From assembly GCA_020726405.1 (NCBI GenBank), contig DYSB01000004.1:1-52126 (forward strand): a stretch of 52,126 nucleotides of DNA, in the 5' to 3' direction. Of the stretch, positions 121 to 35,988 are shown one piece after another. The notes beneath the pieces were generated by a model that was given only the letters and a program-made list of their open reading frames with translations, did no database searches and was not told the DNA's origin. Origin of the DNA: Acetofilamentum sp. GTDB taxonomy: Bacteria > CAIWAD01. The position numbers were made by a program, and so were the translations under genes. Position 1 is the stretch's first letter. Each line of letters starts with the position of its first letter.

Positions 121-540
121 GCGACATCACGACGCTGCAGAAGCGCCCTCCCTCAGGCGGAACCAGTTACATGGTGGCAGGTAGCCCAAGCGCCGGCTGG
201 CAGAAAGGTGGAAACATGGCGCCCGGCATTCTCCGGCCGTGAGAGGCTGAGTGCCTCATCCATGGAGCCTGGGAACACGAAGATTCGAAGGCTCGAAGCG
301 GATGCTGGGGTGCTCGCAGTGGCTCTTCAACACAGAGGCACAGAGGCACAGTGAAATCGTGAGTCAGTTGGAGTCAATGGTCAAGTGAGGTGAAGCCCGC
401 CGGGCTGACCGCCCGTGGCTGAACCAGAACCAGGTGGTGACGCTCTCGGGGGGTGATTTCGTTTGGACCGGATGAAGGCGGGTGCGGCGAGAGTGCTTCC
501 TTGCCAGCGCAGAGACCAAAGACCGATGGGAGGATTGACG
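121..540. other. 420-bp intergenic region built of short repeats
   Basis: No convincing gene is present. The region carries short phrases that recur in the other large intergenic region at 34089-34626: CAGAAAGGTGGAAA (201-214), CGGCCGTGAG (about 234-243), the 22-mer around GAAGGCTCGAAGCG (279-300, one mismatch to 34215-34236), tandem CACAGAGG (331-350) and TGAAG-hairpin-GAACCAG (about 391-426). The last ~15 bases hold the ribosome-binding site GGGAGG of the next gene. Shared phrases in different order suggest a dispersed non-coding repeat family. Confidence 0.6.
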
Positions 541-8629: not shown

Positions 8630-9555
8630 CAGCCAGCTGCGGGACGATGTGGCGCGAGATCCACTGGACCAGTTCGCCACCCGTCAGGTAGAGCCGATCC
8701 AGCATGGCTAGGCCCGCCACGACCATCAGGGCCGCGAAGCGCCGGGAGGAGTGCCAGGCGTTGAGGGCGTAGAAAAAGCCCAGCGCGGGCAGGAAGAGCA
8801 GGAAGTCGAGCAGCAGCTCCCGGCTCATGAGTCCCCAGATCTGCGCCAATGGGGCCGGCTGCCAGAGCAGCGGAATGGGGTTCATCCCGTGGACCAGGGC
8901 GGCGCCGGACAGCACCAGCAGCGGAATCAGCTGGGTCGCCGCGGCTGTGGCCAGCATCAGGACCAGCAGGAGCGGCCCGTTCACCAGGGCCTTGGCCAGC
9001 ACGGCCTCACCCTCGGTGGGTGGCATGGACTTGAAGAAGTAGATGCTGCGTGGTCGCCTCCTGGCGGAACATGTTCAGGGTCAGGATGGCCGCCATGAAG
9101 CCCAGTGGCAGCAGCGTGAACTTGCCGATGACCAGCAGGACCAGCAGCAGCATGTGCGAGCGCACCTGCACGGGCAGACGTCCGAAGAAGTCCAACAGGT
9201 TCGCCACGGTGACGTCGCCAAGTTCCACCACGATCCCGCTGTTCCCCAGTCCCGGGATCAGGCGGGCCAGGTTGCTGTGGGAGCCGTGGAAGCTCAGGCT
9301 GTCGCACTACTCGTTGGCCGGTTCGCTGTCCGAGCCGTTGAAGTGGATGGTGGACTGGTTGGAGCGCAGGTTGGCGTCGATGCGCCCCGGCAGCACCAGG
9401 GCCAGCAGGCTGCCCGCCAGCACCAGGCTGGTCAGAATCAGCGGCAGCACCCAAATGTGGCGGTGCTCCCAGAGTTCGCGGCGCATCAGCATGCCCAGGC
9501 GCCGCAGTTTGCCGCGGAAGAGCGGGTTGACGGGCGTGTCCATTTGAGTCGTCAT
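8630..9555 (-). pseudogene. Decayed ABC transporter permease (paralogue of the neighbouring permease)
   Basis: ATG 9555 begins a protein resembling the upstream permease at 9586-10620: LGMLMRRELWEHRHIWVLPL here against LAVLIKREFWEHRELLWVPV there. The frame is cut by TAG at 9307-9309, then continues in the same frame (FGRLPVQVRSHMLLLVLLVI). It shifts by one base near 9043-9053, and goes on (SIYFFKSMPPTEGEAVLAKAL to MLDRLYLTGGELVQWISRH). Compared with the paralogue the last ~60 residues are missing. The next gene's signal peptide starts directly after. An in-frame stop, a frameshift and a 3' truncation together make this a genuine pseudogene more likely than a sequencing artefact. The boundary at 8630 is approximate. 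Confidence 0.75.
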
Positions 9556-14933: not shown

Positions 14934-17900
14934 GGGACGGGCTCAACCGGCTGTCAAGTTCCAGAATCAGCTCCAGCGGCGGACGGTCCTCGAAGCAGCC
15001 CTGACTGGGTTGATCCGCCTGCACGCCGCGCAGGAAGAGATAGCGCAACCCGCCCAGGTGCTCGCCGGGTCGGTAGCCGGGGAGGGTGCGCGCCAGGTGG
15101 CGGTGCAGCGCGACCAGATAGAGCAGGCCCTGGATGAAATAGCCGGAGCGCGCCATCTCGTCGGCCAGGGCGCGGCGCGGATAGGCCGCGGCCGTCGTGC
15201 CCAGCCGGTTGGATTTCCAGTCCAGCACCCACCAGCGGCCGTCCTGCCAGTGGATCTGATCGATGTAGCCCTTGAGGAAGCCCGCGGGCAGGTCGCCGGG
15301 CAGCGGCGGTGGGCTGGCGGGCCAGGGCGGCGTCAGCCCCAGCCGGGCCGCGGAGAAGAGGCCGTGGCGCTCCAGCAGCGCGCGGAACTCCACCGCCGAC
15401 AGGGCGGCGGCGCGCAGGTGGAATTCCAGCTCGGACACTCGCTGTCCGTCCCCTAGCGAGGAGAGCCGGAATCCCTGCGTCGTGAGCGGCGTGTCCAGGA
15501 TCTCCTCCAGCCAGCGCGCGCTGCCCGGGGCGAGGGATTCGTCCAGCCCGTGGGCGCGCAGCTGCTGCCGGCAGTGGGCCTCCAGTTGGGCGGACCCGCG
15601 GCCGGGGCTGAAATCCGCCAGCTCCAGCAGCTTGTGCAGGCAGGTGCCGGCGGTGGCCCCGCGGGGAAAGCGCCCGCGCCAGTCCTCGGGCTCGCCAGGC
15701 TCCAACTCCGCCGCCGGGGCCGCGCCCGCGAACCACTCGTCCAGCCGCTCGTCGGCGTGGGCGTCGGTGAGCAGGCTGGAGAAGGAGCTGAGCCGCGCGC
15801 CCGCCGGAATGCGGCCCGCGAAAGGCTGGATCCGCGGAAGCTCCGCTACAGCGCGCAGCGTGTCACCCGCATCCGGGGCGGGCAGGAGTTCCAGGGCTTC
15901 CACGCCCAGCACGCCGGGACGGGCGAGTTCCTCCCAGGCCTGCCGCTGGGGCCCGGGACCCTCGGCCCAGAGCGTCTTCCAGGACTCGCCGGCGCCGGGC
16001 GCATCCTCCGTCAGCCGGCGCGAGAGCAGCAGCCAGTCCAGCGCGCAGGGCCGCCGCCGGCTCGCCGAACTGGGCGCCACGCTGTAGAGTAGGGTGTGGT
16101 GGCGGGCGCGGGTGAGGCCCACGTAGGCCAGCCGCAGGCTCTCCGCCAACTCTTCCTCTTGCAGGGCAACGTGCCGGGCGTCCGGCAGGGGCCGCGCCTT
16201 GGACCAGGCCACCAGCTCCGGCCGGTCCGCCTCGTCGTGCAGAAGCGTCGCGCCGAACTCGTCCCGCCGCCCGCTCTCGTCCCAGAGGAAGGGACAGACC
16301 ACCAGCGGGAACTCCAGTCCCTTGCTCTTGTGCAGCGTCAGCACACGCACCAGGTTGTCCTCGCTCTCCAATCGCAGCTCGGCCGCCGCGCTCTCCTGAT
16401 CGCGGCTCCACTCCAGCCGCAGAGCCAGTTCGTCCGGTGTCAAGCCGCCGGGGCCCTCCAGTCCGGGCAACAGCTCCAGCAACTGCAGCCAGTTGGTGAG
16501 CCGGCGTTCGCCCCGGCGCAGTCCCAGCAGGGCCTCCGGCAGACCCATGCCCTCGAACAGTCCACGCAGCGCACGGCTGGAGCCCAGGCGCCGGGCCGCC
16601 TGCAAGGCCGCATGCAGACGCTCCTGCAGCTCCTCCTGGAGTGGCGCGGAGCCCAGCGCAGCCTGGGGATCCGAGCCCAGCGCGAAGGCCAGCGGGCCGG
16701 CCAGCACGGTGCGCAGACGCCCCGTGTCATGGGGGCGTGCCAGGGCCAGCAGCAGGCGCTGCAGGTCCACGGCCTCGGGGCTCTGCAGGACGGAGCGCGG
16801 GCTGAGCTGCACGCAGGCCAGTCCCAGTTCCGCCAGCGCGTCCGCCACCAGCGTGCCCTGGCGATGGCTGCGCACCAGCACGGCCACGTCCCGGCCCTCG
16901 ACGGGCTCCAGGCCACCCGGCCCCAGCCAGCCAGTACGCTGTCCGGGGGACGGGCGCAGCAGGCGGGCCAGCAGGCGCGCCAGGTGCCGGGCCACCCGCC
17001 GTCCGGCGAAGGGTCGGTTCAGGCCGGGCACGTCCTCTTGCAACACGCGGAAAGGCGGCAGCGCCCGGCCGTCCAGCCAGAGTTCCCGCTCCGCGACCTG
17101 GCCCGACGGCCGCAGCTCAGCCGCATGGATGTCCGGACGCAGGAAGGCGCCGCGCTGCGCGGGAAAGCGTCCGGCGTCGAACAATGCGTTGACCGCCGTC
17201 AGCAGGCCGGCCCCGGAGCGCCAGTTGGTGCGCAGCTCCTCGCGCCGGTCCGCCGTCCGGGCCGCCGCCAGATAGGCGCGCAGGTCGGCGCCGCGGAAGG
17301 AGTAGATGGCCTGCTTGGGGTCGCCCACCAGAATTAGCGGCCGGCCCTCGGCCTGGAAAACACGCCGGAAGATTCCGGCCTGCAGCGGGTCGGTGTCCTG
17401 GAACTCGTCCACCAGCGCCACGCGCCAGCGCCGGCCCAGCGCCCGGGCCAACTCGCCGCCGCCCGGGCCGGCGAGGCCCTCGGCCACCAGACTGAGCAGG
17501 TCGCTGAAATCCAGCCGTCGATTCTCCAGTCGCAATTCGGCGGCCCGCCGGGGCCAGCTGCGCAGGGCCTGGTCCTGCAAGCGCTCCAGGACGACCGTGT
17601 AGCTCTCCACCAGCCGGTCCTCGAGCTCCAGCAACTGGTTCAGCGCGTCCAGGGCCGGATGCCGGGGAATCCGCCCATCCTTGGATTTGGCCGCCATGGC
17701 CCCTGCGGAGAAGCGTCGGGCCTGGGGACAGGCCCCCAGCGGCGCATCCTGCTCCAGCCAGCGGACGGTGGCCAGCAGCCAGCGGGGCACGTGATCCTTG
17801 CGGTAACTGCGCTTGTCCAGTGTGGACGAGGCCAGCAGGGCGGCCAGCTCCTCCGGCACAGACGGCGCAAAGGCTCGCCGGGCCGCATCCGCAGCCTGGA

Positions 17901-18585
17901 TCCGCCCAGCTTCCAGTGTGGGTAGCGGAGCCAGCGCAGCCTCCAGTGCGGAGCTGCCGTCCGGAGCCGGGACGGTCAGCGCGTGCTGTCGGCCCAGTCC
18001 CGCCAGTTTGAGCCAGGGCCCGGGATCCAGCAGACCGCCCTGACTGCGCAGCCAGTCCAGCAGACCGGGCGGGAAGGCCTGCCACAGGCGGCGCAACTCG
18101 TCCAGCCCCACCTGGCGCAGGGAGTCGGCGGAGTCCTCGCCCAGTTCCAGCTCCGCCGGCAGGCCCAGGGCCACGGCCCGCTCGCTCAGCACACGCTTGC
18201 AGAATCCGTGGATGGTGAAGATCGAGGCCTCGTCGAAGGCCGCCAGCGCCGCGCGCAGCTGGCGCAGGGCCAGCTCGTCGTCCCAGCGGCCGGCCTCCCG
18301 CAGGTGGGCACGCAGCTCCTCCAGGAAGGGATCCGCCGGCGGGCCGTCGGGCTCCAGCGCCCGGCGGGCCTCCTCCAGCCGCTGGCGCAGCCGGTCGCGC
18401 AGCTCGGCGGTGGCGGCCTCGGTGAAAGTGAGCACCAGCAGCGAGGGCAGGTCCAGCCCTTCCTCCAACAGGAAGCGCAGCACCAGCGCGCCAATGGTCC
18501 AGGTCTTGCCCGTGCCCGCGCTGGCCTCCACCAGCAAGGTGCCCTGGAGTGGGACGCGGACAGGATCGTGCATCGCGTGGCTCAT
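14926..18585 (-). CDS. recB: RecBCD exonuclease V beta subunit RecB (helicase-nuclease)
   Basis: The 1219-residue product carries an SF1A UvrD-like helicase with Walker A ASAGTGKT (21-28), Walker B VDEFQDTDPLQ, VGDPKQAIYSFRGADL and TLHKSKGLEFPLVV. The C-terminal PD-(D/E)XK nuclease has KGYIDQIHW...VLDWKSNRLG (Asp, Asp, Lys), about 110 residues from the end, then GGLRYLFLRGV as in E. coli RecB. Start ATG 18585 was chosen because it overlaps the recC stop (ATGA) and places Walker A at the usual distance; the frame is open further upstream inside recC, which is not meaningful. It unwinds and degrades DNA ends and loads RecA. Confidence 0.96.
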   Translation of the reverse strand: MSHAMHDPVRVPLQGTLLVEASAGTGKTWTIGALVLRFLLEEGLDLPSLLVLTFTEAATAELRDRLRQRLEEARRALEPDGPPADPFLEELRAHLREAGRWDDELALRQLRAALAAFDEASIFTIHGFCKRVLSERAVALGLPAELELGEDSADSLRQVGLDELRRLWQAFPPGLLDWLRSQGGLLDPGPWLKLAGLGRQHALTVPAPDGSSALEAALAPLPTLEAGRIQAADAARRAFAPSVPEELAALLASSTLDKRSYRKDHVPRWLLATVRWLEQDAPLGACPQARRFSAGAMAAKSKDGRIPRHPALDALNQLLELEDRLVESYTVVLERLQDQALRSWPRRAAELRLENRRLDFSDLLSLVAEGLAGPGGGELARALGRRWRVALVDEFQDTDPLQAGIFRRVFQAEGRPLILVGDPKQAIYSFRGADLRAYLAAARTADRREELRTNWRSGAGLLTAVNALFDAGRFPAQRGAFLRPDIHAAELRPSGQVAERELWLDGRALPPFRVLQEDVPGLNRPFAGRRVARHLARLLARLLRPSPGQRTGWLGPGGLEPVEGRDVAVLVRSHRQGTLVADALAELGLACVQLSPRSVLQSPEAVDLQRLLLALARPHDTGRLRTVLAGPLAFALGSDPQAALGSAPLQEELQERLHAALQAARRLGSSRALRGLFEGMGLPEALLGLRRGERRLTNWLQLLELLPGLEGPGGLTPDELALRLEWSRDQESAAAELRLESEDNLVRVLTLHKSKGLEFPLVVCPFLWDESGRRDEFGATLLHDEADRPELVAWSKARPLPDARHVALQEEELAESLRLAYVGLTRARHHTLLYSVAPSSASRRRPCALDWLLLSRRLTEDAPGAGESWKTLWAEGPGPQRQAWEELARPGVLGVEALELLPAPDAGDTLRAVAELPRIQPFAGRIPAGARLSSFSSLLTDAHADERLDEWFAGAAPAAELEPGEPEDWRGRFPRGATAGTCLHKLLELADFSPGRGSAQLEAHCRQQLRAHGLDESLAPGSARWLEEILDTPLTTQGFRLSSLGDGQRVSELEFHLRAAALSAVEFRALLERHGLFSAARLGLTPPWPASPPPLPGDLPAGFLKGYIDQIHWQDGRWWVLDWKSNRLGTTAAAYPRRALADEMARSGYFIQGLLYLVALHRHLARTLPGYRPGEHLGGLRYLFLRGVQADQPSQGCFEDRPPLELILELDSRLSPSRD

Positions 18586-33201: not shown

Positions 33202-33615
33202 ATGCCACTCAGCCTCCATCTTGAATCGGAGGGGGTCCCCGCGCCCTCTCACCCCGGGGTCCGGCTCTACGTGGACGGCACGAGCCACGGCATCCGCGAA
33301 GACCGGGACATCGAACTCAGCCACTGGAATCCCAGCACCACGCCGGAGATCTTCCAGGCCGACAGCTCCACCGAGATCGCCCTCAATTTCCTTGTGTTCG
33401 GGCGCTTGCCGGCGGAGGGGTTGGTGATCAACAACCATCTGGACGTGGATGGCATTCTCTCGGCCTTCGCCCTGCTGGAGCCCGCGACGGCCCTGGCCCA
33501 GCGTGAGCTGCTGGTGGCCGCGGCGGAGACAGGGGACTTCTGGGCCTGGGCGGATGAGGTGGCGCGCGTGCTGTGCGCGGCCTTCACCTTTGACCTGACA
33601 GGATCCCGGGGATGA
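33202..33615 (+). CDS. Truncated DUF6687-like protein
   Basis: The 137-residue product resembles the N-terminal half of DUF6687: GVRLYVDGTSHGI, ELSHWNPSTTPEIFQADSST, EIALNFLVF, then EGLVINNHLDVDGILSAFAL and AETGDFWAWADEVARVLCAA. Family members as I recall them run to about 250 residues; here the frame stops at TGA 33613-33615. The NNHxDxDG motif resembles metal-binding DHH-type motifs. The stop overlaps the NUDIX start by 4 bp. Either this is a naturally short version or a 3' deletion placed the NUDIX gene directly behind it. Confidence 0.7.
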   Translation: MPLSLHLESEGVPAPSHPGVRLYVDGTSHGIREDRDIELSHWNPSTTPEIFQADSSTEIALNFLVFGRLPAEGLVINNHLDVDGILSAFALLEPATALAQRELLVAAAETGDFWAWADEVARVLCAAFTFDLTGSRG

Positions 33616-34088
33616 GCCACGCCGTCGAGGCCACGCTCTGCTACGTGGAGCGCGCGGGCCACGTGCTGATGCTGCGCCGGGACAAGCGCCCGGACGATTA
33701 CCACTACGGTCGCTGCAACGGTCTGGGCGGCAAGTTCGAGCCCGGCGAATCCCCGCTGGACTGCGCGCGGCGGGAGATCCTGGAGGAGTGCGGCCTGGTG
33801 GTGGGGCGCCTGCGTTTCGCCGGCCACATCACCTTTCCCCTTTTCGACGGAGTCCACGACTGGTCGGTTTTCCTTTTCCACGGAACGGAGGTGGCGGAGG
33901 GCGAACCGGTGGATCCGCCGGAAGGCCACCTGCTCTGGGTGCCGCGCGCGGGGCTGCTGGACCTGCCGCTCTGGGAGGGCGACCGCCATTTCCTGCCCTG
34001 GATGCTGGCCGGCCGCCGCTTCCTGGCGCGCTTCGACTACGAGGCCGGCGTCTATCTTGGCCACGAAGTCTGCTTCCTGGACGACTAG
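33612..34088 (+). CDS. NUDIX hydrolase (MutT-like, 8-oxo-dGTP diphosphatase type)
   Basis: The 158-residue product has a perfect Nudix box, GKFEPGESPLDCARREILEE followed by CGL (about residues 37-59), matching GX5EX7REUXEEXGU. The N-terminal ATLCYVERAGHVLMLRRDKR and C-terminal GDRHFLPWMLAGRRFLARFD fit the 8-oxo-dGTP/2-OH-dATP diphosphatase subgroup. The likely role is cleaning oxidised nucleotides or a related nucleoside diphosphate derivative. The start overlaps the preceding gene by 4 bp. Confidence 0.93.
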   Translation: MSHAVEATLCYVERAGHVLMLRRDKRPDDYHYGRCNGLGGKFEPGESPLDCARREILEECGLVVGRLRFAGHITFPLFDGVHDWSVFLFHGTEVAEGEPVDPPEGHLLWVPRAGLLDLPLWEGDRHFLPWMLAGRRFLARFDYEAGVYLGHEVCFLDD

Positions 34089-34626
34089 ACGCCCGGCTGG
34101 CTCCCTGTCTCCTTGGTTACCAACTCACCACAGAGGCACAGAGGCACAGAGGCACAGCGTGGTGATTGGACTCGGCCTGGGTTGGGTTTATTCATCCTAG
34201 AACCACTTGCGCAGGAAGACTCGAAGGCTCGAAGCGCTTTGTGTCACGTGAGGTGAAGGCCTTCAGGCCTGAACCAGAGAATGGGTGAAGCCCGAAGGGC
34301 GAACCAGCGAACGAGGCGTCAGGAATCGGGACCCTCGGGCCGCTTGTTCGACGCCGGCCGTGAGGCCGGCTAGTTCGGCCCGCTGAGAAAAAGCGCCTCT
34401 TTGGCTCCACCTTTCTGGCACCAGCAGAAAGGTGGAAAACAAGGGGATCACAGAAGATGACAGGGATGCTGAGAACCCCCATCCCGACCTTCCCCCTTGC
34501 CGGGGGAAGGGGCGACTGAGCGAGAGGAGAGCCCCGCGTGCAACGCGTGATCCTGGCGGGATGCCCCCTGAGCGCTGAGATGGTCTGTCCGCTGGTCTGA
34601 ATCGACACACATCGACAGGAGGTTCC
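34089..34626. other. 538-bp non-coding mosaic of repeats and hairpins
   Basis: No gene is visible. Elements in order: three CAGAGGCA units (34131-34157); a 22-mer matching 279-300 with one mismatch (34215-34236); two TGAAG-stem-GAACCAG modules (34253-34276 and 34285-34307); a GCCGGCC-GTGA-GGCCGGC hairpin (34353-34370); CCACCTTTCTG/CAGAAAGGTGG (34407-34435); CCTTCCCCC/GGGGGAAGG (34488-34510). Several of these also occur at 121-540. The last 20 bases hold the GGAGG of the AtuA gene. Confidence 0.7.
34407..34435. repeat. Perfect 11-bp inverted repeat (hairpin)
   Basis: CCACCTTTCTG (34407-34417) and CAGAAAGGTGG (34425-34435) flank a 7-nt loop. The right arm plus AAA also occurs at 201-214 in the other intergenic mosaic. 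No T-run follows, so it is not a standard terminator. It is best read as part of a dispersed repeat. Confidence 0.8.
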
Positions 34627-35988
34627 GTGAACCGCATCGTGCGCATCGCCAACGGCCAGGGCTTTTGGGGCGATTCCATCGACGCTCCCGTGCATCTGGT
34701 GGAGCGCGGCGGGATCGACTTCCTCACCCTGGACTACCTGGCCGAGGTGACCCTGTCCATCATGCAGCGCCAGCGGCTGAAGAACCCCGAGACCGGTTAC
34801 GCGCGGGACTTCGTGGAGCTGGCCGGCCGAATCCTGCCCCGCTGCCTGGAGCGCGACATCCGCGTGGTGACCAACGCCGGCGGCGTGAATCCGCGGGCCT
34901 GCCGCGAGGCGCTGGGCCGCGTGGCGGCCAAGCTGGGCAAGCGCGTGCGCATCGGCGTGGTGGAAGGCGACGATATCCTGGAACGTGTGGCCGAATTGGA
35001 GGCCGCGGGCGCCAACTTCCGCAATCTCGAGACCGGCGAGTCCTTCGACGCCGTGCGCGACCGGATCAGCTCGGCCAATGTCTACATCGATTCCTTCTGC
35101 CTGGCGGAGGCGCTGGACCAGGGCGCTCAGATCGTGCTGGCCGGCCGTGTCTCCGACCCCGGCCTGGCGCTGGGCCCACTGGTGCACGCTTTCGGCTGGG
35201 GCCGCGCGGACTGGGATCTGCTGGCCGCCGGCACGCTGGCCGGCCACGTCACCGAGTGCGGCGCCCAGTGCACGGGCGGCAACCACAGCCGCTGGTGGGA
35301 GGTGCCCGACCTGGCCGGGATCGGCTATCCCGTGGTGGAGGCCGGCCCGGACGGCTCCTTCGTGGTGACCAAACAGCCCGGCAGCGGCGGCATGGTGACG
35401 CGCGAGACCGTGGGCGAGCAGATCCTTTACGAGATGGGCGATCCGCACAACTACATCAGCCCGGATGTGCGCGTGGACTTCACGTCCTTCCGGCTGGAGG
35501 AGGAGGCTCGCGACCGCGTGCGGATCAGCGGCGTCCGCGGCCTGCCCGCCACGGATACTTTCAAGGTTTCGTTCTCGTATCACGCTGGCTGGAAGGCCCA
35601 CGGCCAGCTCACCGTCAGTGGGCCGCGCGCGCGGCTCAAGGCGGCCCGGGTGGCAGAGATCATCTGGGAGCGGCTGCGCCAGGCGGGCTGCCATTTCGTG
35701 CACACGGAGACCGAGTTCCTCGGCCTGGATTCCTGCCACCCCGGCATCCGGCCAGCTCCCGCCCAGGTGAACGAAGTGGTGCTGCGGCTGGGCGTGCGCG
35801 ACCCCGACGCGGGGATGGTGGAGCGCTTCGGCAAGGAGCTGGCGCCGGTGATCACCAACGGACCCCCGGGGATCACGGGCTTCGCCGGCGGGCGGCCCAA
35901 GCCCCAGGAGATCATCGCCTACTGGCCGGCGCTGGTGCCCAAGCAGCTGATCCGGACCAGCGTGAACGTCGAAGAAGCGGGAGCCTGA
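34627..35988 (+). CDS. Acyclic terpene utilisation AtuA-like protein (DUF1446)
   Basis: The 453-residue product covers the whole DUF1446/AtuA domain: VRIANGQGFWGDSIDAPVHL, GIDFLTLDYLAEVTLSIMQR, VVTNAGGVNPRACREAL, ALDQGAQIVLAGRVSDPGLA, GHVTECGAQCTGGNHSRWW and GSGGMVTRETVGEQILYEMG. The GTG start at 34627 follows GGAGG with 5-bp spacing. AtuA-type proteins are linked to terpene or branched-chain acyl-CoA catabolism, but the reaction is not established. It is followed after one base by its usual small partner. Confidence 0.92.
   Translation: MNRIVRIANGQGFWGDSIDAPVHLVERGGIDFLTLDYLAEVTLSIMQRQRLKNPETGYARDFVELAGRILPRCLERDIRVVTNAGGVNPRACREALGRVAAKLGKRVRIGVVEGDDILERVAELEAAGANFRNLETGESFDAVRDRISSANVYIDSFCLAEALDQGAQIVLAGRVSDPGLALGPLVHAFGWGRADWDLLAAGTLAGHVTECGAQCTGGNHSRWWEVPDLAGIGYPVVEAGPDGSFVVTKQPGSGGMVTRETVGEQILYEMGDPHNYISPDVRVDFTSFRLEEEARDRVRISGVRGLPATDTFKVSFSYHAGWKAHGQLTVSGPRARLKAARVAEIIWERLRQAGCHFVHTETEFLGLDSCHPGIRPAPAQVNEVVLRLGVRDPDAGMVERFGKELAPVITNGPPGITGFAGGRPKPQEIIAYWPALVPKQLIRTSVNVEEAGA

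Follow-up and report, generated by a model that had tools for sequence, protein, structure and literature searches.

The window analyzed here, a stretch of 52,126 nucleotides, contains two large intergenic regions. Region 121-540 lies between an ORF running to position 120 and a gene that starts at about 541, and region 34089-34626 lies between a NUDIX-type gene (33612-34088) and a gene that starts at 34627. The preliminary description had reported that the two regions share five phrases (a to e) in different orders, d-e-b-a-c in the first and a-b-c-e-d in the second. All five phrases were found where they had been placed, and both orders are correct (Table 1).

Table 1. Shared phrases and modules of the two intergenic regions (positions in the window).
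Feature	Position	Strand	Remark
Phrase a	331 and 34129		both window regions
Phrase b	279-300 and 34215-34236		22-mers, one mismatch between them
Phrase c	390-427 and 34254/34286
Phrase d	201 and 34425
Phrase e	234 and 34355
Region 34089-34626: module A, CACAGAGG octamer array, outer edge TCACCACAGAG	34125..34157	+	36 nt past the stop codon of the NUDIX-type gene
Module M, TTGGACTCGGCCTGGGTTGGG spacer segment	34165..34190	+	13-copy alignment, genome matches
Module B, GAAGACTCGAAGGCTCGAAG octamer array, CACGAAG/CTCGAAG units	34210..34236	+	alignment; phrase also flanks the GxxExxY remnant of contig C243
Module T, TTTGTGTCACGTGAGG	34238..34253	+	13-copy alignment
Module C1, palindrome GTGA-AGGCCTTCAGGCCT-GAACC	34253..34277	+	alignment; stem variants remain complementary
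Module C2, second palindrome GTGA-AGCCCGAAGGGC-GAACC	34285..34307	+	alignment; stem variants
Module E, hairpin around CGCCGGCCGTGAGGCCGGC	34332..34381	+	13-copy alignment; this slot holds either of two versions
Module D0, GAGAAAAAGCGCCTCTTTGGC	34385..34405	+	alignment, genome matches
Module D, perfect 12-bp-arm hairpin TCCACCTTTCTG...CAGAAAGGTGGA	34406..34436	+	alignment; 33 copies in own genome
CCTTCCCCC/GGGGGAAGG hairpin, 3' of composite	34488..34510	+	similar in some copies
Region 121-540: C2-like palindrome and V segment (TGGTGGCAGG)	140..185	+	atypical copy
Right half of D (CAGAAAGGTGGAAA)	201..215	+	atypical copy; left half absent
CTCCGGCCGTGAGAG, phrase e	229..246	+	atypical copy
Module B (CACGAAGATTCGAAGGCTCGAAGCG)	276..300	+	atypical copy
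Module A	331..351	+	atypical copy; 3' of B as in contigs C132 and C176
C1 palindrome with short insertion, then GAACCAG and second GTGACGC unit	390..427	+	atypical copy

The phrases are neither limited to two copies nor coding, as the preliminary description had allowed. In the 3.06-Mb genome, where counts were based on searches and on individual stretches, CACAGAGGCACAGAG occurs 48 times (26 + 22) versus 2 for the reversed pattern, and the d hairpin (at most 3 mismatches) 33 times versus 0 in the control. BLAST with a 341-nt composite query returned 104 pieces, and modules A, M, B, T, C1, D0, and D each have only 0-4 copies inside called genes. The pieces belong to a composite of about 310 bp, consisting of octamer arrays A and B, REP-like palindromes, and hairpin D, that forms about 30 recognizable clusters. 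Thirteen full copies can be aligned end to end, with sharp borders beside ordinary genes. Many contigs of this fragmented MAG start or end within a copy, so the true number of composites is higher.

The left part of the composite consists of a TCAMCACAGAGG octamer array (A), a GCCTGGGTTGGG segment (M), CACGAAG/CTCGAAG octamers (B), and TTTGTGTCACGTGAGG (T). The middle contains palindromes of the form GTGA...GAACC (C1, C2), a CAGGAAG segment (V), and a long hairpin in two alternative versions (E), and the right part GAGAAAAAGCGCCTCTTTGGC (D0), the hairpin TCCACCTTTCTGGCGCAAGCAGAAAGGTGGA (D), and the terminus AACAAGG (about 34443 in region 34089-34626). The stems of the C palindromes stay complementary despite sequence variation between the flanks GTGA and GAACC. 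Array A stands at the left end only, without an inverted partner array. In clusters with at least three module types, 135 of 140 neighboring pairs follow this order. Region 34089-34626 is therefore the canonical form of the composite, and region 121-540, with half of D followed by B before A, is one of the atypical copies; the B-before-A arrangement recurs in two other copies. True shuffling is thus rare, and the earlier view of the regions as shuffled mosaics does not hold as a rule. A hairpin of the CCTTCCCCC...GGGGGAAGG type often follows the composite, as it does in the window and similarly in contigs C246, C262, and C270; it may belong to the composite as one more module or be a repeat in its own right. 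On contig C185 (about 1870-2060), module B octamers stand as an inverted pair on their own, with no module A, in the manner of the short A pairs described below.

The composites start 17-120 nt past a stop codon, and their orientation is that of the upstream gene in 25 of the 26 that have a left end and a called neighbor. CACAGAGGCACAGAG and the D hairpin are absent from two genomes of the same genus and one of the same family, and a search through 1.30 Mb of G002, a genome of the same genus, found none of the modules A, B, and D. Between syntenic genes, the composite site on contig C246 measures 511 nt here versus 64 nt in G002, that on C270 344 nt versus 100 nt, and an isolated B site on C263 357 nt versus 96 nt; synteny with G002 extends on both sides of the compared composite sites. 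The multiple copies outside called genes, their absence from two genomes of the genus, and these empty sites bear out the proposal that modular elements were inserted between genes. The position in G002 that corresponds to region 34089-34626 lacks an element and is occupied by another small gene; this extra gene, at about 17770-18444 of stretch L405, reads as LOG/lysine-decarboxylase-like. Where C185 has its B pair, G002 carries a long intergenic GATATC/GATCGG simple-repeat tract (L145, about 9130-9240). No target-site duplication was visible in the 13-copy alignment or in the copies of another genome, G205, and the relatives are too diverged for base-level proof. A plasmid or viral carrier of the composite was rejected, with no plasmid match and no D module in IMG/VR.

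The preliminary description also stated that such phrases occur between genes of unrelated bacteria. This is true of phrase a and not of the d hairpin: among the 386 genomes searched, module D is absent from the 385 others and private to this one. Three tandem CACAGAGN units were found in 13 of the 386 genomes, belonging to unrelated families, and the reversed control was low in nearly all. CACAGAG arrays occur in at least 12 phyla, the majority in inverted pairs that face inward. Named genomes scanned for phrase a arrays gave at least 116 stretches, and the organisms among the matches listed include Alpha-, Beta-, and Gammaproteobacteria, Acidobacteria, Planctomycetes, Spirochaetes, Verrucomicrobia, Chloroflexi, Bacillota, Chlamydiae, Cyanobacteria, Bacteroidota, Nitrospirota, Nitrospinota, and Desulfobacterota. 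Among these listed matches, 90 of 116 loci have an inward inverted A pair within 1 kb (median gap 60 nt), and only 12 of 123 close neighbor arrays face outward. Any gene-orientation bias of the A pairs in other phyla is uninterpretable, because half of the pairs lie within mechanically called ORFs. CACAGAG-type arrays were also present in 55 IMG/VR stretches. One contig classed as viral, IMGVR_UViG_3300037755_001324 (L430, L449, L463), has at least 4 inverted CACAGAG pairs, and it is possibly a vector or misclassified host DNA.

Genome G205 contains 85 triple arrays; 13 sampled sites share the outer ends TTGCCACAGAGGCACAGAGACACAGAGG, and many copies have a central hairpin. One A-element site of G205 is empty at the orthologous positions of two genomes of its genus, G434 and G408. 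At a second site (L540, 1440-1740), where G205 has period-8 arrays, G408 is empty and G434 has period-9 arrays around a different core (L546, C1 about 813540-813760), indicating either that more than one element has made use of this position or that one element has turned over completely. The only GxxExxY gene of G205 lies between CACGGAG arrays.

At three unrelated loci, in Verrucomicrobia, Geobacteraceae, and Alphaproteobacteria, inverted CACAGAG arrays likewise enclose one small ORF. It codes for a GxxExxY protein (TIGR04256; Pfam PDDEXK_3, PF13366; E about 1e-44). The consensus of 46 copies retains GxGxxExxY, RxD, ExK, and Q, as would be expected of an active PD-(D/E)XK fold. The gene is present in 76 of the 386 genomes, namely in 9 of the 13 with CACAGAG triple arrays versus 67 of the 373 others (Fisher p=1e-4). 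The four array-bearing genomes without it include G068, with 15 arrays; three of these four have TIGR02436 genes, and G068 has neither gene. Inverted repeats above a fixed score flank 35 of 50 GxxExxY genes versus 32 of 600 random placements, and 13 of 21 genes in a second set from a wider sample, which is the fairer test because most of the first 50 genes came from array-selected genomes. The array units vary (CACAGAG, CGCAGAT, CACAAAG, CGCCGAT, CACGAAG, and others) and fit CRCNRAK followed by linkers of 1-3 nt. Inward tandem CRCNRAK units with a period of 8-10 stand on both sides of 40 of 71 GxxExxY genes, 1 of 26 TIGR02436 genes, and 34 of 1000 random placements; since the motif was derived from the same loci, this effect size is optimistic, and the contrast with the TIGR02436 family is its safer part. 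Palindromes c and e and hairpin d lie outside this array grammar. A defence gene reading was rejected, as PADLOC gave no match for GxxExxY, and no solved structural relative was found by sequence.

Five GxxExxY matches were obtained in the genome studied here, and two of them correspond to the halves of a single frameshifted copy. The remnant on contig C243 lies between AACACGAAGGCTCGAAGGCTCGAA and its inverse, that is, phrase b. The frameshifted copy, on C202, lies between ACACGAAG arrays directly past a stop codon, and a copy on C280 lies between CGCGAAG arrays. Since none of the GxxExxY genes found in this genome is flanked by CACAGAG arrays, the link of phrase a to the gene rests on other genomes. 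The short A pairs of this genome contain no GxxExxY remnants, and the two array-less genomes of the same genus have no GxxExxY gene. Neither window region was seen to contain the gene, so they can be at most non-autonomous derivatives of a GxxExxY element.

In intergenic DNA (L356-L383), inverted heptamer arrays enclose 22 of 26 TIGR02436 genes, which code for S23p-like four-helix-bundle proteins. One of them (L356) lies inside CACAAAG/CACAGAG arrays, and the present genome has no match to the family. The array period is 8-10 for 33 of 35 GxxExxY genes and 7 for 18 of 22 TIGR02436 genes. A related arrangement has been described in the 23S rRNA intervening sequence of Coxiella burnetii, which carries an S23p gene (TIGR02436), a 28-bp terminal inverted repeat, and GACAGAT heptamers before the ORF (PMC4990558). 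These results suggest that TIGR02436 genes and heptamer arrays form a second, sister class of miniature elements, with the rRNA intervening sequences as a special case.

Taken together, phrases a and b are probably the ends of GxxExxY elements and of their non-autonomous, MITE-like derivatives, whose mobility the nuclease would drive. This reading rests on how many copies there are, how their modules are ordered and where they lie, on empty sites and the lack of the elements in relatives, and on the association of the array grammar with GxxExxY genes, seen across phyla and, for phrase b, in the same genome. A full-length element would measure about 0.4-0.7 kb and hold one GxxExxY gene of about 120 aa bounded by inward CRCNRAK units with 1-3 nt, and the shortened inverted pairs without a gene would be its MITE-like derivatives. 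In this genome, such ends appear to have combined with the REP-like palindromes c and e and the private hairpin d, giving the composite of about 310 bp, which may have multiplied recently and lands just past stop codons, oriented like the gene upstream. We infer that the arrays are recognized by the nuclease, that it mobilizes the element, acting in trans on copies lacking the gene, and that the composite would spread likewise. Action of the nuclease on the arrays, with movement of the element as its result, is the most likely course of events, though we hold this part with little better than even confidence.

A different role for the nuclease gene has to be considered, in which it is a passenger: host repair, replication slippage, or another transposase would copy the arrays and hairpins, and GxxExxY and four-helix-bundle genes would settle between them. 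Copies lacking a gene are indeed far more numerous than those with one, both genes are missing from the array-bearing G068, and TIGR02436 genes have inverted tandem arrays around them too, of period 7 (22/26 and 18/22). However, the arrays of the two gene families differ both in period and in the sequence of their units. This difference speaks for a relation of the ends to the particular gene they enclose, and we regard the passenger explanation as rather unlikely. Mobilization of REP/BIME-type repeats by RAYT (Y1_Tnp) transposases would fit the palindromic units with conserved GTGA...GAACC flanks and compensated stem variants, as well as the placement past stop codons described for REPs (PMC3733652), and Y1_Tnp genes are present in the genome. 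Yet the modules lie beside none of its three Y1_Tnp genes, the array-free relatives G001-G003 have as many or more of them (3, 6, and 10), and A and B are tandem octamers rather than tagged palindromes. This mechanism was rejected for want of association between Y1_Tnp genes and modules, and it is decidedly improbable.

Selection for RNA structures at the 3' ends of genes, acting as terminators or stabilizers, is suggested by the position of the composites just past stop codons, co-oriented with the upstream gene, and by several inner hairpins that are terminator-like (C61, C151, and copies in G205). However, the elements are absent at orthologous sites in the same genus, and arm covariation in the hairpins was not significant: arms agree at 33 of 60 spacer positions versus 29 expected (p=0.22), and an RNA hairpin under pairing selection was rejected accordingly. 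The preliminary description had also considered a known structured RNA, which was rejected with no Rfam 15 match at the gathering score in the window. Such RNA function is unlikely as the main explanation; it could be secondary and is compatible with mobility. Random drift of simple repeats, contamination, or assembly error might be suspected from the many contigs that end inside an element. The near-zero reversed-pattern controls, the 13 full copies aligned with sharp borders beside ordinary genes, and the G002 synteny on both sides speak against it, and we consider it extremely improbable.

The GxxExxY elements and their derivatives resemble several known systems in part. Like REP/BIME repeats with their RAYT genes, they are multi-copy, extragenic mosaics of palindromic units near gene 3' ends, with REP-like placement 3' of coding regions for 25 of 26 composites. 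They differ in having octamer arrays at the leading end, in palindromes tagged GTGA/GAACC instead of GTAG or CGTC, and in the lack of association with RAYT genes. Pneumococcal BOX elements are also composites of ordered modules, whereas the modules here include arrays matching the ends of GxxExxY elements. The likeness to MITEs lies in short, non-coding copies, inverted ends common to longer gene-bearing copies, and empty sites in relatives: inverted terminal repeats are present in the short A pairs (90 of 116 loci among the matches listed), and empty sites were found at C246 and C270 relative to G002 and in G434 and G408 relative to G205. In contrast to MITEs, the ends are tandem octamer arrays, no target duplication was seen, and the partner gene belongs to a PD-(D/E)XK nuclease family with a putative part in transposition. 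The TIGR04256/PDDEXK_3 (PF13366) family itself is connected by its genes occurring between arrays of the same grammar. The 23S rRNA intervening sequence is likewise a tiny selfish element with one small gene, a terminal repeat, and tandem units (PMC4990558), but it is located in rRNA, excised by RNase III, and has period 7, while the elements here have period 8-10 and GxxExxY.

No description of a GxxExxY function or element was found in the open-access literature (subscription journals and preprints were outside its scope), nor was an explanation for CACAGAGGCACAGAG-type short tandem repeats between genes of unrelated bacteria found there. We tentatively propose, at somewhat less than even confidence, a class of mobile elements new to the literature, with a gene for a PD-(D/E)XK nuclease of about 120 aa (GxxExxY) between inverted CRCNRAK arrays of period 8-10 and without a conventional transposase. 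Its trans-mobilized gene-less derivatives would seed intergenic repeats in many phyla, and its sister class would combine a four-helix-bundle protein with heptamer arrays and include the rRNA intervening sequences. The match between the octamer ends of the composite and these widespread, almost unstudied miniature elements suggests how such repeats reach unrelated bacteria. Linking the repeats to one nuclease family gives a concrete, testable mode of spread; it also offers a likely role for a large family without an assigned function and a connection to rRNA intervening sequences. Many small annotated ORFs and terminator-like hairpins may belong to such elements.
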